Shown here: positions 124 to 27,947 of the stretch, piece after piece
How positions within the stretch are numbered: the first letter of the stretch is position 1
Layout of the letters: every line of letters starts with the position of its first letter
Assembly: GCF_015831355.1 (NCBI RefSeq)
Contig: NZ_JADWYR010000003.1
Span: 1 to 64,000 of the forward strand
Origin: Panacibacter microcysteis
GTDB taxonomy: Bacteria > Bacteroidota > Bacteroidia > Chitinophagales > Chitinophagaceae
Direction of reading: 5' to 3'
Length of the DNA: 64,000 nucleotides
Translations under genes and position numbers: made by a program
The notes under the pieces: model-generated
Databases searched by the model: none
Told to the model about the DNA's origin: nothing
What the model saw: the letters and a program-made list of their open reading frames with translations, nothing else

Positions 124-264
124 CAGGCATCAGCAGCGGTTCGGGCTCGACATTCAATGTTCAGCTTTAGTTCTTAACTTCAACAACATATTTTCAAATG
201 GGCATTTGTACCGGGCTGGACAATCAATGAATTCCCTGCCTTCGCAAATACTTTTTCGTTAGCT
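124..264 (+). repeat. attC-like site 0 (right half only)
   Basis: Distal part of an integron-type recombination site. It ends in the right box GTTAGCT (258-264), preceded by an arm CTTCGCAAATAC also found in the site interrupted at 24742-24756. Its middle contains the segments AGCAGCGGTTCGGGC and TTAGTTCTTAACTTCAAC, which recur in the other sites of this window. The left half was lost at the IS3 insertion. The following cassette starts at TT (259). Confidence 0.75.
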
Positions 265-272
265 GGCATTTT

Positions 273-806
273 ATGAGACCATCCTTACTATTAGTAACAT
301 GGACAATTTTAGTTTGCTCTTGTAGTGACACAGGACAAGAAAAAGTTGAGTCTGCTGACACTTTAAAGACAGACCTTTCAAACACCAAATCTTTAGACAC
401 CACAAGCAAGGTAGACAGTAACAATACAAACAAGGCAACATTAACGCTGGACACCTTACCAAACATTTCACTTGGTAAAATGACATTGGTATCAAGTGGA
501 CAAATGTCACCTTACACAACAATTAAAATTGATGGTTGCGATTTTGATTTGGTAACAAATGACAGTGACACAACTTATCTGGCTACTAACGACAAAAAGT
601 TTCAGACACCTGAAGGTTATAAAGTTGGAACAAGGTTTACGGAATTACCAATAGAAATTCAAACCGAATTGACAAAAGAACCAGACTGGGGTTATTATTT
701 CAAATTATTGTCGGGGTGGACATTGGGATTCTGCGAAGGCAATTCATGTACAGACAAGTATCCAGAAAATGGTTCAAAGGTAAAATGGATATTCAAACGA
801 CGATAA
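273..806 (+). CDS. Cassette 1: putative lipoprotein of unknown function
   Basis: A 177-residue protein that starts 14 nt after the cassette boundary. The N-terminus has a short hydrophobic stretch ending in a lipobox-like VCSCS (Cys 15-17), so it is probably an exported lipoprotein. A Ser/Thr/Asp/Lys-rich linker (residues 20-60) is followed by a compact domain of about 110 residues with four Cys (CDF, FCEGNSC) and many aromatic residues. I do not recognise the family. The gene fills its cassette (259-1003), with its stop only 8 nt before the left arm of the next site, the usual layout of an integron cassette gene. No promoter or ribosome binding site is evident. Confidence 0.75.
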   Translation: MRPSLLLVTWTILVCSCSDTGQEKVESADTLKTDLSNTKSLDTTSKVDSNNTNKATLTLDTLPNISLGKMTLVSSGQMSPYTTIKIDGCDFDLVTNDSDTTYLATNDKKFQTPEGYKVGTRFTELPIEIQTELTKEPDWGYYFKLLSGWTLGFCEGNSCTDKYPENGSKVKWIFKRR

Positions 807-813
807 ACAAAAC

Positions 814-1009
814 GCCAGCTAACATTGGGTTTTATGCAAGTTGGGCATGACCAGCAAACATCAACAAATTGCAAATCCAAGCTGTAGTTCGGGCTGGACG
901 AATAAATCTCAACTTTAGTTCTTAAATTCAACTTTATATTTTCAATCAGCAGCGGTTGTGGGCGGACGAATAACAATTCCCAACCTGCATAAAGCCCTGA
1001 CCGTTGGGC
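814..1009 (+). repeat. attC-like site 1
   Basis: A 196-bp site. The left box lies in GCCAGCTAAC (814-823) and the right box is GTTGGGC (1003-1009). Inner arms GGGTTTTATGC and GCATAAAGCCC pair, separated from the boxes by 3 nt on the left and 5 nt on the right, as in the asymmetric spacers of attC. The left end (GCCAGCTAA) is the reverse complement of the start of its own cassette (TTAGCTGGC at 259), as expected for a site that is continuous in the circular cassette. Confidence 0.88.
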
Positions 1010-1056
1010 GTCATGCGGAAGAAACTCAAAACTTAAAAAGACTAACTGATTTGACA

Positions 1057-2397
1057 ATGATTGATAAGCTAATTTACCTTTTACAAGAATTGAAGGACAC
1101 TTTTTCTAAGGAAAAAATGGATGAGACTTTAGAGTGTTTGGAAGATGAGGTGACCCCAAATGCTTTATATATAAACCAAGACGAATTCAGAGAAGCCTTC
1201 AATGGACAACACGAGGAATTTTACAATGAATTGGCAATAAACATTGTTGCTGATTTAAATGAAAACCCAGACTTGTTCTTTTTGATTTGGGATCCGCTTT
1301 TGTACTTCTTTAATCCAGAGACAAAATCCCTATTCTACGAACAGGCTTTAACCAACGCTGATAACACAGACGCTACTGATTTCATTAACGGGTTGATTGA
1401 ACTTGATAATCAACGACCAGAAATTGCCTTATTTCATTTTAACCGAATTGATGATTATGTTGCCTCATATTTCATTGCCTTATGTTACTTTGACTTGGAA
1501 AATTTTGAGAACTCCATTAAAAACAATCTTCTTTTCCTTGAAAATTTCAAGGCAACAATGCGGAATAGCAAAGTTGAAAACGAAACTCTTGAAAGCACTG
1601 ATGAATATCTTTTGGTGAAGTATAATGTGCATAATGATTTAGCATATTGTTACAACAGGATCGAAGATTACTCACATGCTTATGAACACTATAAGGAGGC
1701 TCTAAAAATATTTAGCTTAGAAGAGCTATACTTTTTCCGACATAATGAAAGTGAAGAACAGAACCTTTTTGTTTTAGACCTGAACAACTTTCTTTTAGCC
1801 ATTGAAAAAGTGGGTGAGTATGCAAAAGGAATTGAAATTCTAAACTTTGCAATCGAAAAATATCCACACAATTGTTATTATAAAGAGTTGAAGCAAAAGT
1901 TTGAACAAAAGACTTCTAATCTTTCATTTGCTGATGAACTAATCAAGCAGTTATTTAAAATTAAGAAACCTTTCAACATTGAAAAGTTTGTAGCAACGAA
2001 GCTGTTAGCCAAAGAAAAAATTTTGGAAGACATGATTGTTGAGCAGATAAAGTATGGGTATAAAGTGTTCGGAAAGGATTTGGAAGTTTATCAGGACAAT
2101 AAAATATTTGGGCGACAGTATTACCTTCCAACAGTAAGCGGTATTTTAGATTTGTTGCTTGTCGAAAGAGGCTCGAACACCCTGTATGTAGTGGAATTGA
2201 AACGTAATGAAGCAGGTATAGGAGTAGTTGAACAAATTGAAAGATATATTTTGGGACTGGGACACCTTTTCATTGACAGAGACATAAAAGGAATTATTTG
2301 CTTACACACACCCGACACTAATCTTGTTGAATTAGTTAAGACTAAGCCAAACATTGAGCTATTCAAATACGAGTTTAATTTTAACAGGCTAAAATAG
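1057..2397 (+). CDS. Cassette 2: TPR-repeat protein with C-terminal NucS-like (DUF91) nuclease domain
   Basis: I chose the ATG at 1057; the reading frame stays open further upstream only because it runs through the recombination site. The 446-residue product has helical, TPR-like repeats in its first two thirds (for example the segment YNDLAYCYNR-type helices around residues 190-300). Its C-terminal 110 residues carry the motif GILDLLLVERG followed by YVVELKRNEAG and VVEQIERYI. This D...ExK pattern is typical of the PD-(D/E)XK fold of NucS/DUF91 endonucleases. The likely role is nucleic-acid cleavage guided by a protein-interaction scaffold; integron cassettes often carry defence genes, but no defence role is shown here. 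The stop is 34 nt before the left box of the next site. Confidence 0.8.
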   Translation: MIDKLIYLLQELKDTFSKEKMDETLECLEDEVTPNALYINQDEFREAFNGQHEEFYNELAINIVADLNENPDLFFLIWDPLLYFFNPETKSLFYEQALTNADNTDATDFINGLIELDNQRPEIALFHFNRIDDYVASYFIALCYFDLENFENSIKNNLLFLENFKATMRNSKVENETLESTDEYLLVKYNVHNDLAYCYNRIEDYSHAYEHYKEALKIFSLEELYFFRHNESEEQNLFVLDLNNFLLAIEKVGEYAKGIEILNFAIEKYPHNCYYKELKQKFEQKTSNLSFADELIKQLFKIKKPFNIEKFVATKLLAKEKILEDMIVEQIKYGYKVFGKDLEVYQDNKIFGRQYYLPTVSGILDLLLVERGSNTLYVVELKRNEAGIGVVEQIERYILGLGHLFIDRDIKGIICLHTPDTNLVELVKTKPNIELFKYEFNFNRLK

Positions 2398-2431
2398 ATA
2401 GGCAAAGAGTTCTCATTACGCCAGCACGAAC

Positions 2432-2626
2432 GCCCAACAATCGGTTTGGCGTTATGGCGGCAGGACGTCGGAGCAATCGGGTCATTGCAAATCCCAACTT
2501 AAGTTCGGGCTGGACGAACAAATCTCAACTTTAGTTCTTAAATTCAACTTTATATTTTTCAATCAGCAGCCTTTGTGGGCGGACGAATAACAATTCCCAA
2601 CCTGCATAAAGCCCTGCTCGTTAGCT
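2432..2626 (+). repeat. attC-like site 2
   Basis: Site of 195 bp with left box GCCCAAC (2432-2438) and right box GTTAGCT (2620-2626). Its left end complements the start of cassette 2 (TTGGGCGT at 1004). The middle is nearly identical to site 1 (segment TCAGCAGC...TGTGGGCGGACGAATAAC), while the left arm (GGTTTGGCGTTATGG) is of a different type than the right arm (GCATAAAGCCC). The arms therefore pair worse here than in the other sites, which suggests a hybrid site. Confidence 0.82.
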
Positions 2627-13146: not shown

Positions 13147-14655
13147 ATGCTTTTAAAAACAATTAGTTCATATACTTTGCTTCTTACACTGATTTGTGTA
13201 AGTACTTACTCAACGGCTCAAACATTTTCATTGGGTGTAAAAAGTATTCAGTATTCCTATGCATTTGAAAAAGCAAAAAATGAAGATTATTTTTTCGGTA
13301 CTGTAATGTTTTCAAGTGTAGTAAGTAACTACTACTATCTTACCAGAATCGATACTGTAGGAAAGGTAAAATGGGAAAAGTATTTTCCTGCAAACCATCC
13401 TGTTCCCTATATCTGCTTGTCTGCTACATCAGACAATGGACTGATTTTGTTTGCAAAGGACTACGACACAATGAAAAATAATTATTCTTTGCTTGTAAAG
13501 TTGAATGAAAATGGCAATGTACAATGGGCAAAAAGATTTCTTGTAAGCAACAATTTATTGACGACTCCTGTGAGTGTAATCGAAAATGAAAGCCGCGAGT
13601 ATGTATTATTGTACGATGTTGTTGAAAACAATATTTATAAACATAAACGCCCGCAAATAAGCGTATTTAGCAGTACGGGTGTACTCATCTCTCAAAGAGG
13701 TACTTCTCCATCGGTTTTCGGAGGAAATGATTATTACTCAAACAGTTTGTATATAAACAGCAACGGAGATTATATAATTGGTGCCGAAGTGGTGTTGGTA
13801 GATTTCGAGAATAATTCAGCGTCTGAAGTACTCAAGATCTTCAAAGATCATAAAAAGCCAATACTGACAGATATAATTTTTGGTGATTCTTATGATTCGG
13901 ACTGGCCAAACAAAGTGATTGAAAAGAACAACAGGTTATTCATCATAGGCGGTTATGGGGTTTACTCGGATTACCCCCATAAATTTTTATTTACCTACAC
14001 AAATTTTAGTGAGGCGGAATTGGAATGCAAAGTGACCTTGATGGAGCAAGATGTGTTTCTTAATCAACAATTGGTTAATGCAGGTAAAATACCACATAAG
14101 AGAGAACTTTTTCCAAGCATAGACAAGAATGGAAATATGTATGGGTTGTGGTATAACGATGATCATGTAACAATAAACAAATGGACCGCTGAAAGTAAAA
14201 TTTGCCCGGATTATACTGCACCGCTACTTAATACCAGAAGTAAAGTAAGCACAGCACGCATCAGCAGAATGGAAATAAAGGAGAACGTAGACAGTATTTC
14301 ATTGTTAGAAAATTATAACCTTTTACCAGGAGATACAGCATTAATATTTACAGAGTGTAATGATATCACTTTATCGGGGCTACAAAAACCTGTTAAGGCT
14401 GGAAATAGTGCTGTCGGACTTTTTCCCAATCCGGCACAAGACTTTACATTGATCAATTTTCAGTTATCGGCAAAATCAACTGTTACTATTAAAGTTCTAT
14501 CTATAGATGGGATGATACTTCAGTCTATGAAAGAAAATTTATGGTCTGGAAAATACCAACGCAGATTGGATATTGCGACCCTTGCTAGTGGGTGTTATAT
14601 AATTCAATTAATGATCGGAAACCACACAGAAACTTATAAGGTAGTTAAAGATTAA
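13147..14655 (+). CDS. Secreted T9SS protein, tandem paralogue of the preceding gene
   Basis: A 502-residue protein with signal peptide (LLKTISSYTLLLTLICVSTYSTAQ). The central beta-rich repeats resemble the preceding protein (RIDTVGKVKWEKYFP; KLNENGNVQWAKRFL), and a C-terminal type A T9SS sorting domain follows (LFPNPAQDFTLINFQ...CYIIQLMIGNHTETYKVVKD). The shared order and motifs with the gene at 11422 show a tandem duplication followed by divergence. Substrate or partner unknown. It probably shares a transcript with the upstream gene. Confidence 0.85.
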   Translation: MLLKTISSYTLLLTLICVSTYSTAQTFSLGVKSIQYSYAFEKAKNEDYFFGTVMFSSVVSNYYYLTRIDTVGKVKWEKYFPANHPVPYICLSATSDNGLILFAKDYDTMKNNYSLLVKLNENGNVQWAKRFLVSNNLLTTPVSVIENESREYVLLYDVVENNIYKHKRPQISVFSSTGVLISQRGTSPSVFGGNDYYSNSLYINSNGDYIIGAEVVLVDFENNSASEVLKIFKDHKKPILTDIIFGDSYDSDWPNKVIEKNNRLFIIGGYGVYSDYPHKFLFTYTNFSEAELECKVTLMEQDVFLNQQLVNAGKIPHKRELFPSIDKNGNMYGLWYNDDHVTINKWTAESKICPDYTAPLLNTRSKVSTARISRMEIKENVDSISLLENYNLLPGDTALIFTECNDITLSGLQKPVKAGNSAVGLFPNPAQDFTLINFQLSAKSTVTIKVLSIDGMILQSMKENLWSGKYQRRLDIATLASGCYIIQLMIGNHTETYKVVKD

Positions 14656-15119
14656 TGGATTTTTCCTTGTTCAACGACTATCGCATATCATCACATCCAC
14701 AGGTGAGTGGGAGATTGTTTTATGTTCGGGCTTTACGGTACTTGCTGTTGTGCTGACAGTATCCGTGTATTTTGCCCTGTGCCTGTCTAGTAATAAATGC
14801 CATGCTTTTCCACGATTAATTTTCGGGGTTTTTCAAAAAGTCATCCGTTTATGGGAAACCGTACTACCACGCCTGTCGATGCAACTATTTTTGTGTACAC
14901 ATTTGCTGTAAAAGAAGGTAATTATACACCATCTCTTTTGTTGTTCGGCTGCACGGATGAAGTACCAATAACAAATATCAGTTTACGGGCTTTGGTATTA
15001 CATGGCATCACCTGTTGTGTCACTCACTTGTACGTCCGGTTGTTGGAGGAACTGTGGGCTGCGGGTCAAAACCACATAGCAATCTATCCCATCTGTAGAG
15101 TGAAAAGATTTGAATTAAA
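14656..15119. other. Intergenic stretch with a dispersed-repeat copy at the edge of the cassette island
   Basis: No supported gene; an open frame over most of it (14797-15288) has no family features and runs through the repeat. The repeat core lies at 15015-15033. This is the last copy of the host repeat before the cassette region, and so marks the chromosome-island border approximately. Confidence 0.5.
15015..15033 (-). repeat. Dispersed intergenic repeat, variant B core
   Basis: Exact TTGTGTCACTCACTTGTAC. Flanked upstream by GGCATCACCTG, which matches the flank of the copy at 55058 only in part. Confidence 0.8.
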
Positions 15120-15296
15120 ATGTCACAGGAAAACGTCGCAGCAATCCCTGATAAATCAAGCGGCATTATCGGGCAAGTCGAAAGCCCTGATCATCCTGCA
15201 ACATATCATCCGAATTATTCGGCTGGCGGATTGGATTGCTGGCCCAAAGATTTCATACCGGATAAACAATTGCGCAAAGCATATTTGAATGCATAA
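15120..15296 (+). CDS. Putative small protein upstream of the recombinase
   Basis: A 58-residue frame (ATG 15120, TAA 15294-15296) with protein-like composition (GQVESPDHPATYHPNYSA; PKDFIPDKQLRKAYLNA). No family recognised and no membrane segment. It lies 81 nt before the recombinase and on the same strand, so the two may be co-transcribed. It could instead be the end of a decayed gene. Confidence 0.35.
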   Translation: MSQENVAAIPDKSSGIIGQVESPDHPATYHPNYSAGGLDCWPKDFIPDKQLRKAYLNA

Positions 15297-15377
15297 AGTT
15301 TCAAAAAAAATAATATTTTTATGGTATTCAATCCTTGCTGCAAACCCTGTGAGTGAGTTGGCGGCGCATTATCGTCT

Positions 15378-16493
15378 ATGAGTATTTCCCATTCTTTGAT
15401 CAGCTACGAAGGAGAAAAGCGCATTCTGGTAAGCTTTCCACCTAACCGGCATTTAAACGGGCGCATGAATATGGTACCAGGAGCCCGTTGGAGCCATACA
15501 CTCAAAGGCTGGCATATACCCGATACTACAGACAACAGGAAAAAGTGCAAACTGGCCGCTACAGATATAACCACTACAGAAACATCGGTTTCAACACAGC
15601 AAACTGTTTTACCGGTTCAAAACAGTAGTAATAACCAGGAGGAAATGCAAAAATTTTTGCAGTGCCTTACTCTAAAAGCCTATAGTAAATCTACCATAAA
15701 AACTTATCGCAATGAATTTGCACAACTACTGCATCTGTTAAAAGATAAGCCGGTACAGGATTTAGCACCACATCACCTGCAAAAGTATTTCCTCTACTGC
15801 CTGAAACAGGGCATGAAAGAAAATACATTACATAGCCGGATGAATGCTTTGAAGTTCTACTATGAGCAGGTGTTGCACAGGCACACCATGTTTTTTGACA
15901 TACCAAGACCAAAGAAACCATTGCAACTGCCCAAAGTATTAAATGAAGATGAACTGGCAGGTATGTTCAGGGCATTACCAAATCTTAAACACAAAGCATT
16001 GTTGTTTACAGTTTACAGCGCCGGGTTAAGGGTTAGTGAGTTAGTCAATCTCAAACTCCGTCATATAGATAGTGGCAGGATGCAGATACTCATTGAAAAT
16101 GCCAAAGGTAAAAAAGACAGGTATGTGCCCCTGAGCCCCGTGTTACTGGATATACTTAGAAGCTATATAAAGCAGTATAAAACAAAGCCAAAAATGTATC
16201 TTTTCGAATCAGAGCAAACGGGTGAGCCATACCCGACGCGAACGGTACAGAAGATATTCCAGATGGCAAAGCATAAAGCGGGTATCAGCAAACACGCAGG
16301 CATACATGTATTGAGGCATAGTTTTGCAACCCATTTGCTTGAAAAAGGGATTGATATTAAATACATCAAGGATTTGTTAGGTCATTTTAATATTAAAACC
16401 ACTGAGCGATATTTACATGTACGTAAAGACAAGCTGATAAATATTGTAAGCCCCTTAGATGATCTCTGGCAGAAAGGTAAGATAGCATGGTAA
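15378..16493 (+). CDS. Tyrosine recombinase, candidate integron-like integrase
   Basis: A 371-residue tyrosine recombinase. Residues 1-60 form an N-terminal extension with VPGARWSHTLKGWHIPDT, seen in other Bacteroidota integrases, followed by a Ser/Thr/Gln linker. A SAM-like core-binding domain covers about 88-180, and the catalytic domain about 185-365. The catalytic set is complete: Arg218 (SAGLRVSEL), Lys243 (NAKGKKDRY), His310 and Arg313 (HVLRHSFATHL), His336 (LLGHFNIKTT) and Tyr345 (ERYLHVRK). It ends in INIVSPLDDL. Between the Lys and the H-x-x-R box there are only about 60 residues, so the extra segment that marks IntI is absent; by domain it is XerC/D-like. The first cassette begins 102 nt after its stop and is read in the same direction. 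The link to cassette recombination rests on this position only. Confidence 0.9.
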   Translation: MSISHSLISYEGEKRILVSFPPNRHLNGRMNMVPGARWSHTLKGWHIPDTTDNRKKCKLAATDITTTETSVSTQQTVLPVQNSSNNQEEMQKFLQCLTLKAYSKSTIKTYRNEFAQLLHLLKDKPVQDLAPHHLQKYFLYCLKQGMKENTLHSRMNALKFYYEQVLHRHTMFFDIPRPKKPLQLPKVLNEDELAGMFRALPNLKHKALLFTVYSAGLRVSELVNLKLRHIDSGRMQILIENAKGKKDRYVPLSPVLLDILRSYIKQYKTKPKMYLFESEQTGEPYPTRTVQKIFQMAKHKAGISKHAGIHVLRHSFATHLLEKGIDIKYIKDLLGHFNIKTTERYLHVRKDKLINIVSPLDDLWQKGKIAW

Positions 16494-16602
16494 ATTGTAT
16501 TTGCGCCACTACAATTGAAAAAGGCGAACAGTAACATATTGATTGCCAATAGCTCTTTTTTTAAGTTATTTGTTGGAGTGGCGTATATTTAAGTGTTGTG
16601 TG
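16494..16602 (+). promoter_or_regulatory. Candidate attI site between the recombinase and the first cassette
   Basis: The first cassette starts at TT 16596, in the box GTTGTGTG (16595-16602). Unlike the later junctions, there is no 200-bp two-armed site to its left, as expected for attI. Instead a short inverted repeat flanks the space: CGCCACTACAA (16504-16514) and TTGGAGTGGCG (16573-16583), 10 of 11 bases pairing. It begins 10 nt after the stop codon of the recombinase. It could also act in transcription, but no T-run follows it. Confidence 0.55.
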
Positions 16603-16644
16603 TAACCATTCAGCGACACTACTCTACTTCAACAGACAAAGAAC

Positions 16645-17187
16645 ATGAGCGACCATAGTATTTCAATTGTACCAAGACAATCAAGTTATCCAGGCAAAGA
16701 AATTAAAGCAAAAGAAATTTTAGAATGGCTTGTTTCTCTTGACATAGTTAAGTCGACACTTTCAGATTGTGTTCTTAGCTCAAATAACGGTTATGCCATT
16801 TCAAACGGAGCAAAACTTGTTTCAGCAGAGCCAGAACTTTTACCCTTTGACTTAGGCGCAAACGGACTCGAAATAATAACGGAGCGACAGGTTTTTCATA
16901 CAGGAGAAAATGGCATTGAAGAACTATTCTGCCCAAATTGCAAACAGGACATAGCAAGTGAAGATTGGGACTTTTTAAGTGAGTGGGGTGACAATAAAAG
17001 TAACAATTTGACTTGCCCTTTATGTAATGTTGCGACAGACATCCATCAAGTTAAGTTTATACCAGAATGGGGATTTAGCGACTTAGGATTTACGTTTTGG
17101 AATTGGTCAAGTCTGAAAGACAATTTCATAAACGATTTTAAACAAAAGTTGGGGTGTGACATCAATTTAGTTTATACATGGATTTGA
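16645..17187 (+). CDS. Cassette A: zinc-ribbon protein of unknown function
   Basis: A 180-residue soluble protein, ATG 49 nt after the cassette boundary. A zinc ribbon is formed by CPNC (about 92-95) and CPLC (about 119-122). The C-terminal part has the aromatic motif GFSDLGFTFWNWSSLKDNFINDF. I have seen similar CPxC/GFxFWNW proteins annotated only as hypothetical, so no function is given. It is the first cassette after the recombinase and therefore the most recently acquired one if insertion occurs at attI as in known integrons. The stop lies 23 nt before the next site. Confidence 0.75.
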   Translation: MSDHSISIVPRQSSYPGKEIKAKEILEWLVSLDIVKSTLSDCVLSSNNGYAISNGAKLVSAEPELLPFDLGANGLEIITERQVFHTGENGIEELFCPNCKQDIASEDWDFLSEWGDNKSNNLTCPLCNVATDIHQVKFIPEWGFSDLGFTFWNWSSLKDNFINDFKQKLGCDINLVYTWI

Positions 17188-17210
17188 CAGACAACTGCAG
17201 ACCGATTTTG

Positions 17211-17412
17211 GCTACACACAACAGGCGGTTTGGCAATATGGCTGGGCGACGAATACATTCTCAACTTTTTGTTCGCTATTGGGCTTCAGTTCCAGCCGAC
17301 GAATAACACCAAGCAATTGAATAAGCAATGAACTTTTATTTATAAATTTAGCAGCGGTTACGGGCTGACGATTTTCAAATGCCGCCACATCGCCAAGCCG
17401 TAGCCGTTGGCT
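17211..17412 (+). repeat. attC-like site A
   Basis: 202 bp. Left end GGCTACACACAAC pairs with the start of cassette A (TTGTGTGTAACC at 16596). Arms GGTTTGGCAATATGG and CCACATCGCCAAGCC pair; right box GTTGGCT (17406-17412). The middle shares ACTTTTATTTATAAATTTAG with sites E and G. Confidence 0.88.
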
Positions 17413-17472
17413 GCAACTTTTTGACACACCTCAAACTTTGACGAAATAATAATCACTTAACCATATTTCAAA

Positions 17473-17967
17473 TTGACAAAGACTAATTTTTTTCTTGCAT
17501 TGCTTTGTTTGACAGTTTCTTTATCGTCTTGCAAAGCCCAGACAAAAGACAAAATAAATTTAGTGAAAATAATTTTTCATTCAAGCCGTTGTAATGGAGA
17601 TTGCCCAAAGCTTGACTTAGAAATTGACAGTAGCAAAAATTTATTTGTGAGTAGACAATATTTTAAACATAAAGATGAAATCAAAACACCTTACAGTGGA
17701 CAGTTTCAAGGCACTTTAATTGAAACTGACTACAACAAACTAATTGGACTTTTGCAAAATTGTAATTTAGACACTTTAAAATTTCCAGACATTACCTGTT
17801 GTGATGCAGTTATAACAACGATTATAGTTTACTACAATGGACAAAGGAAATATTTAAAATCAATGACACCACCAAATGAAGCAAATGATTTGATTGAATT
17901 TTTGACATTACTTGGTGACAATAAAAAGTTACAAAGAACAAATGAAACAAAAAATATAGAATACTAA
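17473..17967 (+). CDS. Cassette B: putative lipoprotein with DUF6438-like domain
   Basis: A 164-residue protein starting with TTG at 17473; no ATG lies nearby in frame. The N-terminus is a lipoprotein signal (FFLALLCLTVSLSSCKAQ) with the lipid-anchoring Cys about residue 20. The rest fits the DUF6438 pattern: an IIFHSSRCNGDCPKLDLEID strand-Cys motif, a GxYxG-like strand (PYSGQFQG), and a late DAVITTIIVYYNGQRKYLK. Function of DUF6438 is unknown. It lies in its cassette with the stop 7 nt before the next site arm. Family call is from memory of the motif. Confidence 0.75.
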   Translation: MTKTNFFLALLCLTVSLSSCKAQTKDKINLVKIIFHSSRCNGDCPKLDLEIDSSKNLFVSRQYFKHKDEIKTPYSGQFQGTLIETDYNKLIGLLQNCNLDTLKFPDITCCDAVITTIIVYYNGQRKYLKSMTPPNEANDLIEFLTLLGDNKKLQRTNETKNIEY

Positions 17968-17970
17968 AGC

Positions 17971-18170
17971 AGCAGCCAACATTAGGTTTGGCATTATTGG
18001 GGCTTGACGAATATAGCCTCATCATTTGTTCTTTATTGTGCTTCAGTTCGGGCAGGACGTTATAAATTTGCCTGTGAATAAAACATCAGCAATATTGCAA
18101 TCATTGGGCTTCAGTTATGGGCAGACGGAATACTAATTCCCCAACAAACGCCAAGCCTTTTTCGTTAGGT
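17971..18170 (+). repeat. attC-like site B
   Basis: 200 bp. Left end GCAGCCAAC complements the start of cassette B (TTGGCTGC at 17407). Arms AGGTTTGGCATTATTGGGG and CCCCAACAAACGCCAAGCC pair with few mismatches. Right box GTTAGGT (18164-18170). Confidence 0.87.
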
Positions 18171-18178
18171 GCAACCAA

Positions 18179-18676
18179 ATGCGACATTCACTAATTATAT
18201 TCTTTTGCGGACTTCTGATAGTCTCTAACAGTACAAAGTCATTTGCTCAAGTTGACACGGTAAAATATTTGACAGACAAGCACTGGCATCTGGTTAAAGA
18301 CGCTCATCAAACATTTTTGCGGGCGACAATAACCTTCTGCTCTACAAGCCAAGTAAAATCAAAATATCCTAAGGTGACAAAGGAACTAATCGACAATTCC
18401 TACACTTTTTTAAATATTCTAGACAGTACTCAAACCATAGACAGCAGTATCGCTATCAAAATAGATTCGTTAAATTATAATCTTCTAAAATCATTAGTTA
18501 CTTTTTTTGACAAGCTTCAAATGGACAAGGCTCTTTTTAATCAGTCGAAAATAAGAACTCAAGGAAAGAAGGTTGAATATGAAATTGGAAACATTGGACG
18601 ACAAATTCATGAGTTTAATTACTGGATTTATGAGCAAAACCATATAAACATCAAATTCAAGGACATTAGTTTATAA
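18179..18676 (+). CDS. Cassette C: exported helical protein of unknown function
   Basis: A 165-residue protein whose ATG lies 14 nt after the cassette start. A signal peptide (LIIFFCGLLIVSNSTKSFAQ) ends near residue 24. The mature part is almost wholly helical with amphipathic stretches (LNYNLLKSLVTFFDKLQM; EIGNIGRQIHEFNYWIYEQN) and no Cys motif. It vaguely resembles LemA-type periplasmic helical bundles, but I cannot assign it. The stop is 5 nt before the next site, leaving almost no spare cassette sequence. Confidence 0.72.
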   Translation: MRHSLIIFFCGLLIVSNSTKSFAQVDTVKYLTDKHWHLVKDAHQTFLRATITFCSTSQVKSKYPKVTKELIDNSYTFLNILDSTQTIDSSIAIKIDSLNYNLLKSLVTFFDKLQMDKALFNQSKIRTQGKKVEYEIGNIGRQIHEFNYWIYEQNHINIKFKDISL

Positions 18677-18680
18677 ATGG

Positions 18681-18882
18681 CTGCACCTAACATTGCATTT
18701 GTGTTATGTCGGCGGACAGATAACGCCGCTTCAACTGTGTGCTACTATCAACTTCAGTCCCAGCCCGACGTTATAAACTGAGCAATTGAATAAACAATGA
18801 ACTTTTGTATTTTACATCAGCATTTGTACCAACCTGACGGATTTCAAATTCCGCCACAAACACAAATGCTTTAACGTTGGCA
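18681..18882 (+). repeat. attC-like site C
   Basis: 202 bp. Left end GGCTGCACCTAAC complements the start of cassette C (TTAGGTGCAACC at 18165). The arms GCATTTGTGTT and AACACAAATGC are perfectly complementary, with spacers of 3 nt (left) and 6 nt (right). Right box GTTGGCA (18876-18882). The arm sequence is unlike that of the other sites, yet still pairs. Confidence 0.9.
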
Positions 18883-18912
18883 GTAAGTTTAGAACGACTC
18901 CGGTCGACAAGT

Positions 18913-19719
18913 ATGTTAAAGCGATTTTTGAATACCTTTAAATCAAATACACCTATTCAGACAATGTATCCTGAACTTGAAAAAGTCGGTGGACTTCAAA
19001 GTGCAATAGATCTTGAGTTTGAAAAACTTAATTCTATTTTGAGGGTTGCAAATGGCACCGAATTAGAAAACATCCCATTGACTTACGCAAGAATTGAAAA
19101 CGGACAAAAATTTTCACAAGTATATATCGGAGCAGAAGAAAAACTATATCTGCCTGACTTTTGGAGAGACGGTGTTTGCCTTGCACACGGACAAACAAAA
19201 AGTATTACAGAGCTTGTACAAATGTTAGACTTTTGGCTTTGCAATGATATTACTACAAAAGAACTAAATAATAAATTCAGCTTTGTAACTCCAAACAATG
19301 AGGCAAACGCATTTGACGAGAACAAAGAAGTTGAATATACCTGGAACTACATTTTGCAAGACAATTCAAGAGCTGAAATACACGACTTTATTAAACTTGC
19401 AATTAAAGATGAAGTATTAAGTAAATTGTTTCCTTTCACAAGTTTGTACACCTTGTGTTTTAGCAGATGTACAGGTTACCCTTATGATTCGGATGATTTA
19501 CCAAATGTGACACCGAAACAATTTGAAAATTTTGCACCAACTAAAAATCAAAGTTCTTTTACTCAACAAGACACAGAAAAATTGGAAAGACAATTCGTCG
19601 TAACAAAAAATAAGGATGAATATTTAGGTATTGGAAATGCAGAAACAGCACTTAAAATTGTCAAGGAAAATTTACCCGACAATGTTGAACCAGCAAGAAA
19701 AGGAACAGCAGTCCACTAA
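18913..19719 (+). CDS. Cassette D: DUF6193-family protein
   Basis: Start at ATG 18913 (MLKRFLNTF); the frame is open further upstream only through the recombination box. The 268-residue protein matches the DUF6193 pattern: MYPELEKVGGLQSAIDLEFE near the N-terminus, a YLPDFWRDGVCLAHGQT motif, then a TSLYTLCFSRCTGYPY motif in the second half. DUF6193 proteins are best known from actinobacterial biosynthetic gene clusters, with no established activity. A copy in a Bacteroidota cassette suggests horizontal transfer. No signal peptide is seen, so it should be cytosolic. Confidence 0.82.
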   Translation: MLKRFLNTFKSNTPIQTMYPELEKVGGLQSAIDLEFEKLNSILRVANGTELENIPLTYARIENGQKFSQVYIGAEEKLYLPDFWRDGVCLAHGQTKSITELVQMLDFWLCNDITTKELNNKFSFVTPNNEANAFDENKEVEYTWNYILQDNSRAEIHDFIKLAIKDEVLSKLFPFTSLYTLCFSRCTGYPYDSDDLPNVTPKQFENFAPTKNQSSFTQQDTEKLERQFVVTKNKDEYLGIGNAETALKIVKENLPDNVEPARKGTAVH

Positions 19720-19726
19720 GAAAACC

Positions 19727-19928
19727 TACTGCCAACAAATGTATTGCCTCAAATGGGGCTTGACGGAAGAACAATGAGCTGCAAATCGCTACCGTACTCT
19801 ATCCCGGCTTGACGGAATACTGTTCGGCAGTAAGTTGCTAACTTGTACTTTTTACTCATTATTCGGCTGCAGTTGTGGGCAGACACAGCATCAAATATCC
19901 CATCTGCGGCAATACTGGTTCGCTATGT
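19727..19928 (+). repeat. attC-like site D
   Basis: 202 bp. Left end CCTACTGCCAAC complements the start of cassette D (TTGGCAGTAAG at 18877). Right box is GCTATGT (19922-19928), with GTT changed to GCT. The arms GTATTGCC and GGCAATAC pair. The altered right box may impair recombination at this junction. Confidence 0.75.
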
Positions 19929-20514
19929 GCCATACAGCCCGACAGTTTCATCAGCGTTGGAGCGACAGTAAAAGTGTTCCTTATCATTTATGGTTGACTA
20001 AACCCAACGCCCACATCGGCCTGACGTTCTTTGTTCAGCTTTTGAATAAATTTTATTCTTTAGTTTTTCCAAGTTGGCTTTTGTATCGGGTGGACTTTTG
20101 TTCAGGTCATAAGCAAGCGGACATAGTACACGGTTTAACAATCACTGCAACTTTGACAAAAAAATTTTGAGAAGCACGATTCATAACGACAAACAGCAGT
20201 TCATTTTTTTCAACAGAATTTTTTGGTTCGACGTCAATCACTTTGCTTTGACAAAGTTTTTAAACACAAACAGAAAATGCAAAGCTGTTTTCGTTTTTAG
20301 TTGCAGTATTTGGGGCGACATAGCACTTTCGGTTTTGAAACAGCTTTAGAACCAAAATGAATTTTAATTTGCTTTTGTTTATTGCAGTATTTTTCGGTGG
20401 ACACAAAAGATTTATCAATTTTTAAAAAGCATTATTGGCTTGCGCAGTGACAGTTGGTAAAACAAAAAGTTGTTTACAAAATTCAAACACCCAATTCCCG
20501 ACACGAAGAAGTAC
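19923..20514 (+). other. Cassette E body, without a convincing gene
   Basis: This cassette is about 786 bp (19923-20708) including its site, but holds no gene with clear features. An 80-residue frame from ATG 19925 to 20170 (MCHTARQFHQRWSD...) has odd composition. A 60-residue frame from TTG 20167 (ending IWGDIALSVLKQL) and a 22-residue hydrophobic frame from ATG 20355 (MNFNLLLFIAVFFGG) follow. Part of the sequence (TCGGCCTGACGTTCTTTG, near 20015) resembles the interior of the recombination sites. It may be a decayed cassette, a non-coding RNA cassette, or a promoter-bearing cassette. Confidence 0.5.
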
Positions 20515-20714
20515 GGCACATAACAAGCGGTTTGGCAACATGGCGGGGCGACGAATATATTCTCAACTTTTTGTTCGCTAATCGGCTTCAGTCCCAGCCG
20601 TCGAATAACGCCAAGCAATAGAATAAGCAATGAACTTTTATTTATAAATTTAGCAGCGGTTACGGGCTGACGATTTTCAAATACCGCCACATCGCCAAGC
20701 CGTGTCCGTTGGCT
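20515..20714 (+). repeat. attC-like site E
   Basis: 200 bp. Left end GTACGGCACATAAC complements the start of cassette E (CTATGTGCCATAC at 19923). Arms and middle are of the same subtype as sites A and G (GGTTTGGCAACATGG with CCACATCGCCAAGCC). Right box GTTGGCT (20708-20714). Confidence 0.87.
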
Positions 20715-20741
20715 GCTACCTTCAGGCATAATCTATCAATA

Positions 20742-21350
20742 ATGGGAATTTTTTTAAAGGCAATTCATGACCAAAATACTCGACTAAGTAGCAAATACTC
20801 CGATAGAATTTTAAAATTGTTTATTGGTATTTCGTCAGCTTATATATATGAGAAAAGAGAAGCTAGAAAACCAAATACTAATACAATCAAATATAATTTA
20901 GTAAAGCTTGGACATGAGCTTGGATTCCGGGTTTATGCAAATGGACTTACATCAGAACAAAGTCGTGAACAATTTGAAAAGTATGGCTTTGTCAACAGAG
21001 AATTTCTTTATGATGTACACTGGTATGTCGATAAAAAGGGAGAGTTCTATACGCCTGAAGATGTGCCATTAGTTGTTGAATCAGAATTGGGCGATAGAAG
21101 AAAAAATGACACTAGTAAATTGAGAAGTCCTGCGATAAAGTTTGATTTTCAGAAATTGCTTTTTGCAAATGCAGATCTTAGGCTCATGATTTTTAAAACT
21201 AAAAATTTACAGCACCTAAATGAAATCAACTTATATTTCGAAAAAGCAATAGAATCTTTCAGGCTACTTGAAAAGGGTTCGGCTTTTCTTTTCATTTGTT
21301 TTGTACATGATACTAAAGAACTTTATTATTCAGAGAAAAATAAGCAATAA
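20742..21350 (+). CDS. Cassette F: possible PD-(D/E)XK-type nuclease-like protein
   Basis: Start at ATG 20742 (MGIFLKAIHDQN), 33 nt after the cassette boundary. The 202-residue product is cytosolic. An N-terminal helical part precedes a core with DVHWYVDKKGEFYTPEDVPLVVESELGD and, further on, IKFDFQKLLFANADLRLMIFK. The pattern acidic residue - VVESE - DFQKLL recalls a family of restriction-endonuclease-like proteins where the E and D/K residues form the active site, but the lysine is not clear. A nuclease role is therefore only a suggestion. The stop is 4 nt before the next site. Confidence 0.6.
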   Translation: MGIFLKAIHDQNTRLSSKYSDRILKLFIGISSAYIYEKREARKPNTNTIKYNLVKLGHELGFRVYANGLTSEQSREQFEKYGFVNREFLYDVHWYVDKKGEFYTPEDVPLVVESELGDRRKNDTSKLRSPAIKFDFQKLLFANADLRLMIFKTKNLQHLNEINLYFEKAIESFRLLEKGSAFLFICFVHDTKELYYSEKNKQ

Positions 21351-21353
21351 GGC

Positions 21354-21551
21354 AGCAGCCAACATTGGTATTACCAAAAGTTTGGCGGACGTAGTAACAA
21401 TGGGCAGTTATGCACTACTTATCTTCAGTTCGGGCAGACACAGCAACAATCGGCAGCAGTTGTTATCTTCAACAAATATTTTCAATCGGCATTAGTACCG
21501 GGGCTGACGGAATACTAATTCCAAACCTTCGGTAATACCTGGCCGTTGTGC
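21354..21551 (+). repeat. attC-like site F
   Basis: 198 bp. Left end GGCAGCAGCCAAC complements the start of cassette F (TTGGCTGCTACC at 20709). Arms GGTATTACC and GGTAATACC are perfectly complementary; spacers are 3 nt and 5 nt. Right box GTTGTGC (21545-21551). Same subtype as site I. Confidence 0.9.
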
Positions 21552-21588
21552 GTAAGCCTACGGGACAAACCCTAAAATCAATAACGCT

Positions 21589-22288
21589 ATGGGACTTGAC
21601 AGCGTAGAAATATTAATCAAAGTCGAAAACACTTTCGGTATCAAAATTCCAGACCAAGAAGCTGAACAAATTTCAACTGTAGGAGATTTTCACAACGCAG
21701 TTTGGCGACATCTTTCTGGCAAACACAGCGACAAATGTAAATCCCAAAATCTTTTTTATAAGCTACGAAAATCATTTGCTGACACATTCGATTTTTCACC
21801 ACAGAAATTAAAGCTCGACACATCGCCAGAAGAAATATTTCCTAAAACAAACAGACGACGAGTATATTTAAGTTTTGCCGACACAGCAAACTTAAAATTA
21901 CCAGACCTTGTATTGAAAAGCCCTGGACGACACTTTTAACAACTTTTGGTATCGCTACAATTATTGGTGGACTTGCGACATCATTAATTCTTATCAATCT
22001 ATTTGATTTCAGCAAGTGGACACTTTTATTTCCAGTTGCTGGCATTATTCTAACGTTTCTTCTTTCAGACCTACTCAACCCGAACGGACAGCAATTAAAG
22101 AAACAACAGTTCGAGAATTTACACAGCATACTTTGGCGTTAAACTACTCGACACTGGTAGCAAACGAAGGGACTAACAGGCAAGAAATGGAGAGTGTAAT
22201 TAATCATATTATCGCTGACATGGCTGGACTTGATTTAGAAGAAGTAACTTCCGAAAAAAAGATAGCTGACGATTTAGGAATTGACTAA
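21589..22288 (+). pseudogene. Cassette G: acyl-carrier-like protein fused to a membrane segment, with two frameshifts
   Basis: Three consecutive frames read as one protein. The first (21589-21927) begins MGLDSVEILIKVENTFGIKIPDQEAEQISTVGDF, the pattern of helix II-III of an acyl carrier protein with the serine of the DSV motif as possible phosphopantetheine site. It is followed by a linker. The second (about 21927-22130) encodes two membrane helices (TTFGIATIIGGLATSLILINL; LLFPVAGIILTFLLSDLL). The third (to 22288) ends MESVINHIIADMAGLDLEEVTSEKKIADDLGID, the start of another carrier-like domain. Each junction needs a -1 shift. Either the gene is decayed, or there are sequencing errors, or recoding. 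The last frame ends 19 nt before the next site. Confidence 0.65.
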
Positions 22289-22306
22289 TGCAGAAAATAC
22301 AAAGGC

Positions 22307-22508
22307 TATACGCACAACAGGCGGTTTGGCAATATGGCGGGGTGGCGAATATATGCTCAGCTTTTTGTTCGCTAATCGGCTTCTGCTCCAGCAGACGAAT
22401 AACGCCAGGCAATATAATAAACAATGAACTTTTATTTATAAATTTAGTAGCAGTTACGGGCTGACGATTTTCAAATACCGCCACATCGCCAAGCCGTGGA
22501 CGTTGTAC
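22307..22508 (+). repeat. attC-like site G
   Basis: 202 bp. Left end CTATACGCACAAC complements the start of cassette G (TTGTGCGTAAGCC at 21546) with one bulged base. Arms GGTTTGGCAATATGG and CCACATCGCCAAGCC; right box GTTGTAC (22502-22508). Nearly identical in its middle to sites A and E. Confidence 0.87.
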
Positions 22509-22519
22509 GCCACTTTAAT

Positions 22520-23224
22520 ATGACCCGTCTACTAATCATAATATTTTATTTGACTGCATTATTTGATACTTCCTTTGGACAAAAGCCTAAAGTGAAGAAG
22601 TCGAAAGAAAATGTAACAACCAAAACTGTTGACAACAAACAAAACTCTCTTCAAGACACTGCATTTTTAAACCAGTTTGTAAGAATTTATGCAGACAGTA
22701 TTTTGACAATTGTTGACAGCTTATCGAAAGACACAAATTATTTAAAATCAATTGGTGACACTTCTATATTTGGTTATGGAGAATTTGCAAAGGCTGAATA
22801 TAAAATTCGTTTTCCTGCAAGACCTTTAGGATGGACAAGTGATTTTGAAAATATTTTTACAACCAACCAAATCAACGAGTTAGATTCAACAATTAGCAAC
22901 TTTGAAAAGGAAACAAAAAACGAGATCGCAATTGTAACAATCGACAGTTCGTGGACAAATAAAGAAGAGTTTGATGATTTTATATTGACGATTGCAAATA
23001 ATTGGGGAGTTGGTAAAAAAGGATTAAACAATGGAATTACAATTGGTATAAGCACAGGGCTTAGAAAAATTAGAATTTGCAACGGATATGGAATTGAAGA
23101 AAAATTGACAGACGCAGAAACAAAGAAAATCCTGGACGACCTTATACTTCCCGAATTTAAAAAAGGTAATTATTTTGTAGGGACAAAGAGTGGGCTTTTG
23201 GCGTTAATGAAAAAAATCCGTTGA
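22520..23224 (+). CDS. Cassette H: exported TPM-domain protein
   Basis: Start at ATG 22520 (MTRLLIIIFYLTALFDTSFGQ), which gives a signal peptide; upstream in-frame codons lie in the recombination site. The 234-residue protein has a charged linker and a TPM domain at about 110-230. This shows as TTNQINELDSTISNFEKETKNEIAIVTI, then WGVGKKGLNNGITIGIS, then RKIRICNGYGIEEKLTD. TPM domains occur in periplasmic or membrane-anchored proteins (some with phosphatase activity) implicated in photosystem or respiratory-complex assembly. It lacks the C-terminal membrane helix common in that family. Its stop is 6 nt before the next site. Confidence 0.85.
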   Translation: MTRLLIIIFYLTALFDTSFGQKPKVKKSKENVTTKTVDNKQNSLQDTAFLNQFVRIYADSILTIVDSLSKDTNYLKSIGDTSIFGYGEFAKAEYKIRFPARPLGWTSDFENIFTTNQINELDSTISNFEKETKNEIAIVTIDSSWTNKEEFDDFILTIANNWGVGKKGLNNGITIGISTGLRKIRICNGYGIEEKLTDAETKKILDDLILPEFKKGNYFVGTKSGLLALMKKIR

Positions 23225-23230
23225 CAAAGC

Positions 23231-23383
23231 GGCGTACAACATTGGGTTTTGTGCAAGTATGGCTGGACAAACAAACATCAGCCTATTGCAAAGCCAATCT
23301 TCAGTTCGGGCTGGACAAATAACTTTGGGCTTTAGTACTTAACTTCAACTTAATATTTTCAATCAGCAGCGGCTGTGGGCGGA
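23231..23383 (+). repeat. attC-like site H, left part (interrupted by IS110 and IS1182)
   Basis: Left end AGCGGCGTACAAC complements the start of cassette H (TTGTACGCCAC at 22503). The site is closely similar to site 1. It is cut after GTGGGCGGA (23375-23383) by an IS110-family element. It resumes at 24722 (GGACGGAAGTC) up to 24763, is cut again by an IS1182-family element, and ends with GTTAGCG from 26517. Confidence 0.85.
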
Positions 23384-23419
23384 TTTCTATGATCTCACCA
23401 AATAAAAAATCAATCTTAT

Positions 23420-24721: not shown

Positions 24722-24763
24722 GGACGGAAGTCTATTCCCCAGCCTTCGCAAATACCTGCCCGT
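24722..24763 (+). repeat. attC-like site H, middle-right part
   Basis: Continuation of site H between the IS110 and IS1182 elements: CGGAAGTCTATTCCCCAGCC, then the arm CTTCGCAAATACCTGCCCGT. The last four bases CCGT (24760-24763) are repeated after the IS1182 element (26515-26518), where the right box GTTAGCG (from 26517) completes the site. Confidence 0.82.
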
Positions 24764-26514: not shown

Positions 26515-26560
26515 CCGTTAGCGGTAATTTCTTGCAGACACTCCGAATTAGATCGATAGT

Positions 26561-26935
26561 ATGACAAAATCTAAAAACTTGCTTTTACTTTTTGTATTAA
26601 TATGTATATCATCCTGTCTTTGGAATGATACAGCTATTACTGAAGATCTAGGAGATAAATATTTTTATTTAGGCGCTGGAAACGAATCTCAAATTCTATC
26701 AGGAGACGAAAAGAAAAATATAGGAATAACCATTATTCCTCAAGAAGTAATAGAATACAATTTTGACAATCGATTTATAATCGCAAAGAGTGTAGCGAAG
26801 CGTAATAGTAATAATGTTCAAGAATTTTGGATCGTAGACAAAAAAAGTAAAGATTTAATAGTAACGGATTCGATTTCCTTTATGAAAAAGATTGAGAGTC
26901 TTGGATTAAAAATAAGGTTGAAACCGAGAAAGTGA
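26561..26935 (+). CDS. Cassette I: lipoprotein, DUF3997-like
   Basis: A 124-residue protein starting 43 nt after the cassette boundary. It has a lipoprotein signal (LLLLFVLICISSCLW, Cys about 20). The mature part fits the small DUF3997-type lipoprotein: a DLGDKYFYLGAG strand motif, then VIEYNFDNRFIIAKSV, and EFWIVDKKSKD near the end. Function unknown; probably an inner-face outer-membrane or periplasmic lipoprotein. The family name is from memory of the motif pattern. Its promoter, if any, may come from the IS1182 element just upstream. Confidence 0.72.
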   Translation: MTKSKNLLLLFVLICISSCLWNDTAITEDLGDKYFYLGAGNESQILSGDEKKNIGITIIPQEVIEYNFDNRFIIAKSVAKRNSNNVQEFWIVDKKSKDLIVTDSISFMKKIESLGLKIRLKPRK

Positions 26936-26945
26936 TCCCCAAAAC

Positions 26946-27146
26946 TACCGCTAACATTGGCATTACCAAAAGTTTGGCAGACGGAATAACAATGAGCAGT
27001 TTGTGCGCTATTCATCTTCAGTTCGGGCAGACAAAGCAACAATCGGCAGCAGTTGTTATCTTCAACAAAATATTTTCAAATCGGCATTTGTTCCGGGGCT
27101 GACGGAATACTAATTCCAAACCTTCGGTAATACCTGGCCGTTACCT
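26946..27146 (+). repeat. attC-like site I
   Basis: 201 bp. Left end ACTACCGCTAAC complements the start of cassette I (TTAGCGGTAAT at 26518). Very similar to site F, with arms around ATTACC and GGTAAT. Right box GTTACCT (27140-27146). Confidence 0.88.
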
Positions 27147-27175
27147 GCAACCTTAAGCGCAACAGAAATAAATCC

Positions 27176-27871
27176 ATGGCAGTAGATAAAGAAGAAATCA
27201 AAAAAAATAAATATTCAGTTATTGGAAGCCTAATAGGTACAGGGATACTTTTTTTAATTTACCACTTTGGGAATGTGCTGGGGTTAACGGAGTCCTCAAA
27301 AGAAACTTCTTATAAAATTTTAATCATAGCATTGTATGCTACGCTCTTCGGTGGAACACTATTTGTTTTATTTGCAAAAAAGCCACCGAAAAAGTCGGTT
27401 AGCAAGCGATTACCTTTGTTCAGAAAATGGGTTAAGGGATTTGCTATCTTTATCTTAATATTTGGCACTAATGGCGTTAGTGTATATTTTACCCGTCAAA
27501 GTGTCGAAAGCATACCTCCGTACCTTGTTAAGATAATTAATAAAACAAATCTGTCCGTGACTCTAAGTAAGAGCGTCGATTTACAAATAACTAAGCCTAT
27601 TTCGCCTTTTGAAGATCAGCAGATAGATTATCAAAGAGGTACTCTTTCTCAAAATAAAATTAGTAAAGACATCTTGGTTGGCCCTAATGATACAGCCTTA
27701 GCGACACTTAATTTTAATTCCTCTCGACAGCTGTATAACTTGTACAAATCAGGTCAATTTGAGTTGACTGTTATTTTTAAAGCAGATGATGGTAAATTTC
27801 CAATTATTAGCAATATTCCATTTTCTAAACCAATAATGGAGAAGGGCTATTCAGAGTGTATAATAAAATAA
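27176..27871 (+). CDS. Cassette J: membrane protein of unknown function
   Basis: A 231-residue protein, ATG 35 nt after the cassette start. It has three predicted membrane helices: VIGSLIGTGILFLIYHF (about 15-31), ILIIALYATLFGGTLFVLF (about 48-66) and FAIFILIFGTNGVSVYF (about 90-106). A C-terminal domain of about 120 residues follows, beta-rich (LVKIINKTNLSVTLSKSVDL; ALATLNFNSS), probably outside the cytoplasm. I do not recognise it. Last cassette of the array before the IS110 junction. Confidence 0.72.
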   Translation: MAVDKEEIKKNKYSVIGSLIGTGILFLIYHFGNVLGLTESSKETSYKILIIALYATLFGGTLFVLFAKKPPKKSVSKRLPLFRKWVKGFAIFILIFGTNGVSVYFTRQSVESIPPYLVKIINKTNLSVTLSKSVDLQITKPISPFEDQQIDYQRGTLSQNKISKDILVGPNDTALATLNFNSSRQLYNLYKSGQFELTVIFKADDGKFPIISNIPFSKPIMEKGYSECIIK

Positions 27872-27872
27872 G

Positions 27873-27901
27873 GCTGCAGGTAACATGGGGTTTTGCTCAA
27901 G
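27873..27901 (+). repeat. attC-like site J, left end only
   Basis: GGCTGCAGGTAAC complements the start of cassette J (TTACCTGCAACC at 27141), followed by the arm ATGGGGTTTTGCTCAAG. The site is then cut by the second IS110 element; the right half is not found beyond the element, where conjugative-element DNA begins. Confidence 0.8.
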
Positions 27902-27947
27902 TTTTCTATGATTTATTTGAGCCATTTTATTATTAATTTTTTCGTGG

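Follow-up and report, generated by a model that had tools for sequence, protein, structure and literature searches.

A tyrosine recombinase with a HARP-like N-terminal module beside attC-like cassette arrays in Bacteroidota, a candidate integrase of a separate integron lineage

The window analysed here, 64,000 nucleotides of a Panacibacter microcysteis contig (NZ_JADWYR010000003.1), holds a tyrosine recombinase gene that points into a row of repeated sites resembling the attC sites of integrons. In the integron integrase IntI, an inserted helix grips extrahelical bases, and this enzyme lacks the corresponding segment. The locus raises the question of whether such a recombinase can be the integrase of the array beside it and, if so, by what means it would recognise folded sites.

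The recombinase gene and the cassettes behind it

The open reading frame at 15378-16493 (+) encodes a complete tyrosine recombinase of 371 aa, with Pfam matches to Phage_integrase (residues 187-350) and to a SAM-like domain (90-168). The catalytic residues are all present, and they are invariant among 14 family sequences and 22 more distant ones, or at least 90% conserved in the case of Y345 in the distant set. The initial annotation had read the protein as lacking the IntI-specific segment, and measurement bore this out. Lys243 and His310 of the HxLRH box lie 67 positions apart (66 residues between them); among the rows that a script could measure, this spacing was 64-69 in 88 of 142 non-IntI rows (the 142 include the host's two Xer-type rows and one remnant) and 106 or 107 in 6 of 23 IntI rows, the remaining rows of both kinds having failed the motif pattern for the landmarks. 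The figures first proposed, about 60 against 90-95, were slightly low, and the difference of about 40 residues was right. In the alignment to IntI4 (2a3v) the gap falls at residues 272-288 of the query, where 17 residues face the 57 of IntI4 189-245. Among named models, the best was XerA-like, with 207 bits against a cut-off of 220; the cut-offs of XerC (TIGR02224) and XerD (TIGR02225) were missed by far (190 and 175 bits versus 335 and 330), and so was that of the integron integrase TIGR02249 (162 bits in two pieces versus 265 curated). Passages of PMC9668308 describe the IntI-specific segment as necessary for integron recombination, and it is used there for finding integrons.

Downstream of the recombinase and on the same strand, cassettes start with GTT followed by about 9 nt and end in the near reverse complement of those letters, and neighbouring cassettes are separated by sites of 180-185 nt, counted from AAC to GTT. 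This GTT.../...AAC pattern is the border logic of integron cassettes. The features of the window are the following:

258..2438, + strand: two further cassettes (258-823, 1003-2438) and an attC-like site (824-1002), at the contig start, away from the recombinase
15378..16493, + strand: tyrosine recombinase, 371 aa, ATG start, R218 K243 H310 R313 H336 Y345, without the IntI-specific segment
15378..15545, + strand: N-terminal HARP-like module, residues 1-56 (conserved Trp, predicted fold, profile and fold searches)
16575..16597, + strand: attI-like site, GCGTATATTTAAGTGTT, about 100 nt past the recombinase stop; a 97.6% near-copy locus diverges exactly at its end
16595..17222, + strand: cassette 1 (gene 16645-17187), border pair GTTGTGTGTAAC/GCTACACACAAC
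17223..17405, + strand: attC-like site, spacing 184, stem score 19
17406..17980, + strand: cassette 2, DUF6438 gene (Pfam, borders)
17981..18163, + strand: attC-like site, spacing 184, stem score 19
18164..18691, + strand: cassette 3 (borders)
18692..18875, + strand: attC-like site with two single-base bulges, like canonical attC
18876..19736, + strand: cassette 4, DUF6193 gene (Pfam, borders)
19737..19920, + strand: attC-like site whose downstream border is degenerate (sequence inspected by eye)
20525..20707, + strand: attC-like site (read by eye; repeat D1)
20708..21363, + strand: cassette (borders)
21364..21544, + strand: attC-like site (site scan)
21545..22318, + strand: cassette (borders)
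22319..22501, + strand: attC-like site (site scan)
22502..23240, + strand: cassette, TPM-domain gene (Pfam, borders)
23241..23391, + strand: attC-like site cut by an IS110 element (Pfam; cut read by eye)
26517..26955, + strand: cassette (borders)
26956..27139, + strand: attC-like site (site scan)
27140..27884, + strand: cassette whose own site is cut by a second IS110 (Pfam, borders; cut read by eye)

Some observations of the window and its genome stand apart from this array. The contig start (1-2640) is part of another cassette array, with about 12 kb of other genes between it and the recombinase. Two IS110 elements (about 23391-24436 and 27915-29021) lie inside attC-like sites, and by eye both start TTTCTATGAT at the cut; attC-targeting IS elements likewise insert inside attC sites. 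Rfam gave no match at 14000-28000. A second dispersed intergenic repeat of different sequence, with cores GTACAAGAGTGCGACGCAA and GTACAAGTGAGTGACACAAC, occurs in both orientations at 11266, 14998, 35852, 37379, 41457, 43908, 44562, 50976, 53011, 55047, 58155, 61548 and 61739. The host genome has two more arrays, one with a near-identical recombinase gene broken by a stop (C1:6479-7593, L057) and another with no more than a remnant of the gene plus an attI-like site (C4:42001-42168, L058).

Folding of the sites and breakpoints at the attI-like sequence

Site lengths in 40 fetched loci and the window clustered at 116-122 and 180-190 nt, whereas shuffling every sequence once yielded a total of 3 hits, with both bins empty. 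The lengths are stepwise, many sites being near 119 and 184 nt and only a small number near 154 and 165, which would suit an inner part that grows by modules. Longer stems had been suggested as one way in which the enzyme could recognise its sites; we gave it up, since among relatives the class of 116-122 nt (91 sites) is as common as that of 178-190 nt (84).

Alignment of 40 sites of the 118-nt class gave a consensus fold with an 18-bp stem, in which 17 of 18 pairs show compensatory changes, in up to 22 of the 40 sequences. Throughout 175 sites of the two main classes, an A of the 5′ arm faces a C of the 3′ arm 299 times and the reverse occurs 35 times; at least one A·C opposition was present in 168 of the 175, mostly at position 15-16 after AAC. 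Read on the bottom strand, the opposition becomes a T·G wobble. The bottom strand folded better in 73 of 91 (116-122 nt) and 55 of 84 (178-190 nt) full sites, and in 72 of 91 and 70 of 84 when stems alone were folded; a small class near 165 nt had no such bias (3 of 10). Because it folds better, the bottom strand is the probable substrate. Canonical sites analysed with this script (aadA1 on a class 1 integron and IntI-adjacent sites in L166, L168 and L169) have two single-base bulges seven positions apart, whereas most sites here carry the A·C opposition and rarely two bulges, in a comparison of four clear canonical sites with other candidates (2 of 3 and 15 of 18) mixed or probably not attC. 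A 5′-arm bulge was seen in 8 and A·C in 3 of the 18 IntI-adjacent candidate sites. Since canonical examples are few, 51 of our 175 sites have a 5′-arm bulge and one site of the window (18692-18875) has two, we regard the difference from canonical attC as a tendency.

To the 5′ side of the array, the end of the first cassette was compared with the best GTT past the recombinase stop in 105 loci with a downstream site. At least 10 of 12 letters matched in 63 of the 105 loci, as against 80 of 2081 swapped partners, the three letters of GTT always matching and counting toward the 12. The 34 nt before GTT in the 68 loci with at least 9 matches have CgtatATatA.ga in common, which gives the attI-like consensus CgtatATatA.gaGTT. 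Its GTT lies 95-139 nt past the stop in 31 of the 68 loci and ranges from 37 to 563 nt, a few of these sites being plainly not attI.

Comparison of related loci showed where their similarity ends. Up to GTT the window is 97.6% identical to its near-copy L057, which lies on a different contig of the host genome; thereafter the two differ. The similarity of L054 and L071 (91%) stops exactly at GTT; it ends there also in L221/L224, L229/L243 and L128/L130, and one letter later in L119/L121. Similarity ends 15-700 nt past the stop in 163 locus pairs altogether. In 32 of them the end falls at a common GTT (0-7 nt back), compared with 22 of 978 control positions; the pairs are not independent, and a few of the 32 are due to chance. 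The other 131 pairs do not end at GTT, many of them diverging before the attI-like site. Two Chryseobacterium plasmids, NZ_CP041688.1 (L398) and NZ_CP094530.1 (L399), have two backbone blocks in common (86% and 89.7%), the second of which runs through the integrase gene up to the attI-like GTT and is followed by different genes; L399 yielded no convincing attC-like site beyond the attI-like one. Besides a cassette that has no gene and whose site is present four times, the array of plasmid L398 (10149-18000) contains an IS110 transposase gene along with a group II intron gene.

Within arrays, the one good case of a cassette that may have been exchanged as a unit is a segment of 1326 bp in genomes of two families (L219/L225). 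Its copies are 99.3% identical; the right end falls exactly at CGTT and the left end about 30 nt ahead of GTT, in the tails of two preceding sites that differ from each other. A cassette common to L103 (18644 region, oriented) and L225 (11053, oriented) is 93.6% identical, and its similarity ends at AACAA, where L103 has no recognised site, so that this pair suits exchange as a unit less than fully. Judged by comparison, the breakpoints show different DNA joined at the attI-like site past the recombinase gene, and together with the shared segment they are what cassettes inserting at attI and being exchanged would leave behind. Two features that define an integron are thus found here: a recombinase gene beside an attI-like site where, by comparison, cassettes would enter, and a cassette array in which each member has a foldable attC-like site and complementary borders. 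On these grounds the system very likely works like an integron.

Arrays beside homologs and the N-terminal module

Homologs were found at E≤1e-40 in 115 of 294 genomes of the host's family and at E≤1e-50 in 99 of 395 genomes sampled from the phylum. We fetched 140 stretches from homologs and the host, chosen from match lists and not at random. There were 130 homologous loci scoring at least 200, of which 62 had at least 3 kb downstream (the other 68 were shorter, mostly because the contig ends). Within 8 kb downstream, at least one attC-like site was present in 51 of these 62 loci and at least two in 39, and no site was detected in 11. In total, 180 sites lay in 444 kb downstream of the homologs and 25 in 446 kb upstream, while one shuffle of each sequence gave 4 and 5. 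These results support the view that the recombinase family adjoins attC-like arrays far more often than chance would have it, and an ordinary chromosome-dimer or phage integrase clade without nearby arrays, the outcome that would have counted against the initial annotation, was not what we found. Named carriers with at least two sites include Flavobacterium aciduliphilum, Algoriphagus ornithinivorans, Winogradskyella ursingii, Seonamhaeicola aphaedonensis and Algibacter onchidii. Viral homologs with at least 3 kb downstream (n=67) were never scored as having the N-terminal module, and their 22 sites in 496 kb do not exceed, per kb, the upstream flanks of homologous loci.

Fused double recombinases of 676-720 aa occur in Anaerophaga thermohalophila, Alkalitalea saponilacus and a Bacteroidetes MAG (L270:9317-11476, L273:9440-11467, L277:8555-10666). 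By eye they have two N-terminal modules; the first core, whose alignment covers only the stretch ahead of the H/R/H/Y residues, has K, T or E in place of R218, and the second is intact. The MAG form (L277) is followed by five sites, each 116-118 nt long. A chain with one live and one dead core would fit single-strand exchange. Many Acinetobacter plasmids carry short recombinase genes, 53% identical to residues 155-363 and annotated as tyrosine recombinase or TnpF.

An added N-terminal module had also been noticed in the initial annotation, and it proved to be real. Trp residues W38 and W45 are invariant in the module of 14 family sequences, with W38 alone kept at 90% or more in 22 more distant ones, and AlphaFold2 predicts for the module a beta-beta-alpha-beta-beta-alpha fold (pLDDT 87.5) that recurs in the whole-protein prediction. 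By a motif-or-score test the module is present in 115 of 142 non-IntI rows; 2 of 23 IntI rows passed by score alone, without the motif. Among fetched loci with at least 3 kb downstream, module-bearing ones had at least one site in 46 of 57 cases and at least two in 36; for module-less fetched loci the figures were 8 and 4 of 12, two of those four (L042, L073) being truncated genes. In a contig search we considered the best 80 of 588 matches, where the module was called by motif or early alignment start, so that a few calls may be misplaced. Here at least one site accompanied 11 of 13 module-bearing loci and 6 of 36 scored as module-less, and at least two sites 10 of 13 and 1 of 36, respectively (Fisher 3.6e-7 for at least two). 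The sole "module-less" locus with at least two sites in this contig search, L277, has by eye two module-like stretches, and Pfam HARP is absent from it.

Several searches pointed to the HARP domain of SMARCAL1 (4o66). It ranked first and second with Foldseek (E 0.29 and 0.40), ahead of the XPB N-terminal half in third place, and first when a profile of 20 modules was run against PDB sequences (E 0.011). Pfam HARP (PF07443) matched 4 of the 20 modules, at best with 5.7e-7, and the module of the window had no match to it. The gathering score of 25 was reached by 1 of 10 whole family proteins scanned, L268 (26.2 bits), a MAG contig without a site in its 1.4 kb downstream. Among the rows that VIA-align showed for the module (Z at most 3.8), XPB chains were present and 4o66 was not; with the whole model, VIA found only the recombinase core. 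Searched as a single sequence, the window's module matched only DUF5710 in Pfam (E 0.058); the many-member scan, in which DUF5710 also matched 8 of 20 modules (best 0.0027), pointed instead to HARP. The module and the HARP domain have in common a size of about 60 residues and, over a 42-position profile alignment, the pattern Y..ELIa..K.lP......K.W; in SMARCAL1 the domain is fused to a helicase and here to a recombinase. Since three partly independent lines agree, the module is probably HARP-like, the likeness being moderate.

HARP domains bind branched DNA directly, and the module is our candidate reader of the folded site or of its single-/double-strand junctions. It may instead bind attI or arm DNA as duplex, or hold subunits together, and this alternative, although the less probable, deserves serious weight: similarity to HARP is moderate, sites also lie beside some module-less homologs, and, according to PMC8138268, phage and ICE integrases use added N-terminal domains to bind arm DNA. 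Against it, the fold search places HARP and XPB N-terminal domains in the first three ranks and the module tracks with folded-site arrays among the best 80 of 588 contig matches.

Competing enzymes and a proposed mechanism

We considered whether the arrays could be of the CALIN type, moved by an ordinary IntI from elsewhere, with the recombinase as a neighbour that has another job. True IntI is common in the phylum, with TIGR02249 above cut-off in 105 of 395 sampled genomes, and 4 of 20 extra-family loci fetched (L230, L232, L235, L237) come from genomes that have it. In the host genome, however, nothing exceeded this cut-off, and in the host's family only 1 of 294 genomes did, with a partial copy containing a stop; IntI is for this reason no candidate in the family. 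Sites are also far commoner 3′ than 5′ of the recombinase gene, which is followed by the attI-like sequence in 68 loci. Mobilisation by an IntI from elsewhere is hence unlikely.

Could the recombinase itself be a recent IntI that lost its insert, so that this would be a classical integron whose integrase is reduced? It has a C-terminal SP(L/F)D motif in common with IntI and is close to it overall, which would agree with that. In trees of core columns, however, IntI rows formed one clade (support 99 in one tree, 100/100 in another), and the family fell outside it, in a wider group to which module-less recombinases of other phyla also belong. An exclusive clade of HARP-bearing rows plus IntI was rejected (p-AU 0.015), as was a clade of HARP-bearing rows alone (p-AU 0.004), both groups having been tested after the tree was seen. 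As module-less homologs sit among the HARP-bearing rows, loss or repeated gain of the module must be assumed. A recently reduced IntI is accordingly quite improbable. The recombinase of the window is not IntI, because three defining tests fail: it has no IntI-specific segment, does not reach the TIGR02249 cut-off and lies outside the IntI clade. That the repeats derive from REP or IS sequences and the recombinase is a phage or dimer-resolution enzyme is very improbable, even if the window also holds intergenic repeats of other kinds, given the border pairing, fixed spacing, compensatory stems and breakpoints, the grouping of the host's two other recombinase genes with Xer-like rows, and XerC and XerD model scores far below cut-off.

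All in all, the recombinase is quite likely to be the integrase of a separate integron lineage. It resembles IntI with its attC arrays in being a tyrosine recombinase beside attI, in the GTT.../...AAC borders, foldable sites and GTT breakpoints and in the SP(L/F)D motif; it differs in the segment, cut-off and clade named above, in the extra HARP-like domain, in the A·C opposition of most sites and in orientation, the gene being directed toward the array with attI beyond its 3′ end. XerA, XerC and XerD have the same core fold and Lys-to-HxLRH segment length, without the array association and N-terminal module. For the integron-like subgroup of simple tyrosine recombinases, the relevant passages of PMC8138268 describe no cassette arrays, attI or N-terminal module in insertion-less members. 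Among the open-licence PMC papers, other than preprints, that were listed for this system, no such enzyme appeared, and none was found that paired an integron integrase with HARP. Our reading is of an unrecognised integron lineage with its own integrase class, in which the recombinase would be active and would bind hairpins.

By comparison, the recombinase gene lies directly upstream of the cassette array on the same strand, and different DNA is joined at the attI-like site shortly past its stop, with the change at GTT. After each cassette comes a site with two arms that pair into a stem of about 18 bp, kept by compensatory change. In the mechanism that we propose, as in classical integrons, the enzyme would recombine one folded strand of a cassette site, probably the bottom one, with double-stranded attI, and one strand would be exchanged. 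With the IntI helix missing and A·C oppositions in most sites, the HARP-like N-terminal domain may read the folded site or its junctions. The suggestion that recognition proceeds by other means than in IntI is supported in part, in that arrays adjoin the family, breakpoints fall at attI-like sites and the module resembles a domain of a branched-DNA remodeller; its appeal to longer stems fell away.

Tentatively, cassette capture through folded sites may have arisen a second time in Bacteroidota or have diverged there long ago, a HARP-type domain replacing the IntI helix and T·G-wobble sites co-evolving with it; such systems could have spread over much of the phylum, in plasmid-borne forms as well, and been missed as searches demand the IntI-specific segment. 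If a widespread family does the integron job without that segment, folded-site recognition would have more than one solution, and Bacteroidota would hold a large hidden reservoir of cassettes. Reading of hairpin DNA by a recombinase would become testable by swapping a domain of about 60 residues, and the fused forms, in which one core is dead, would be a direct test of single-strand exchange.
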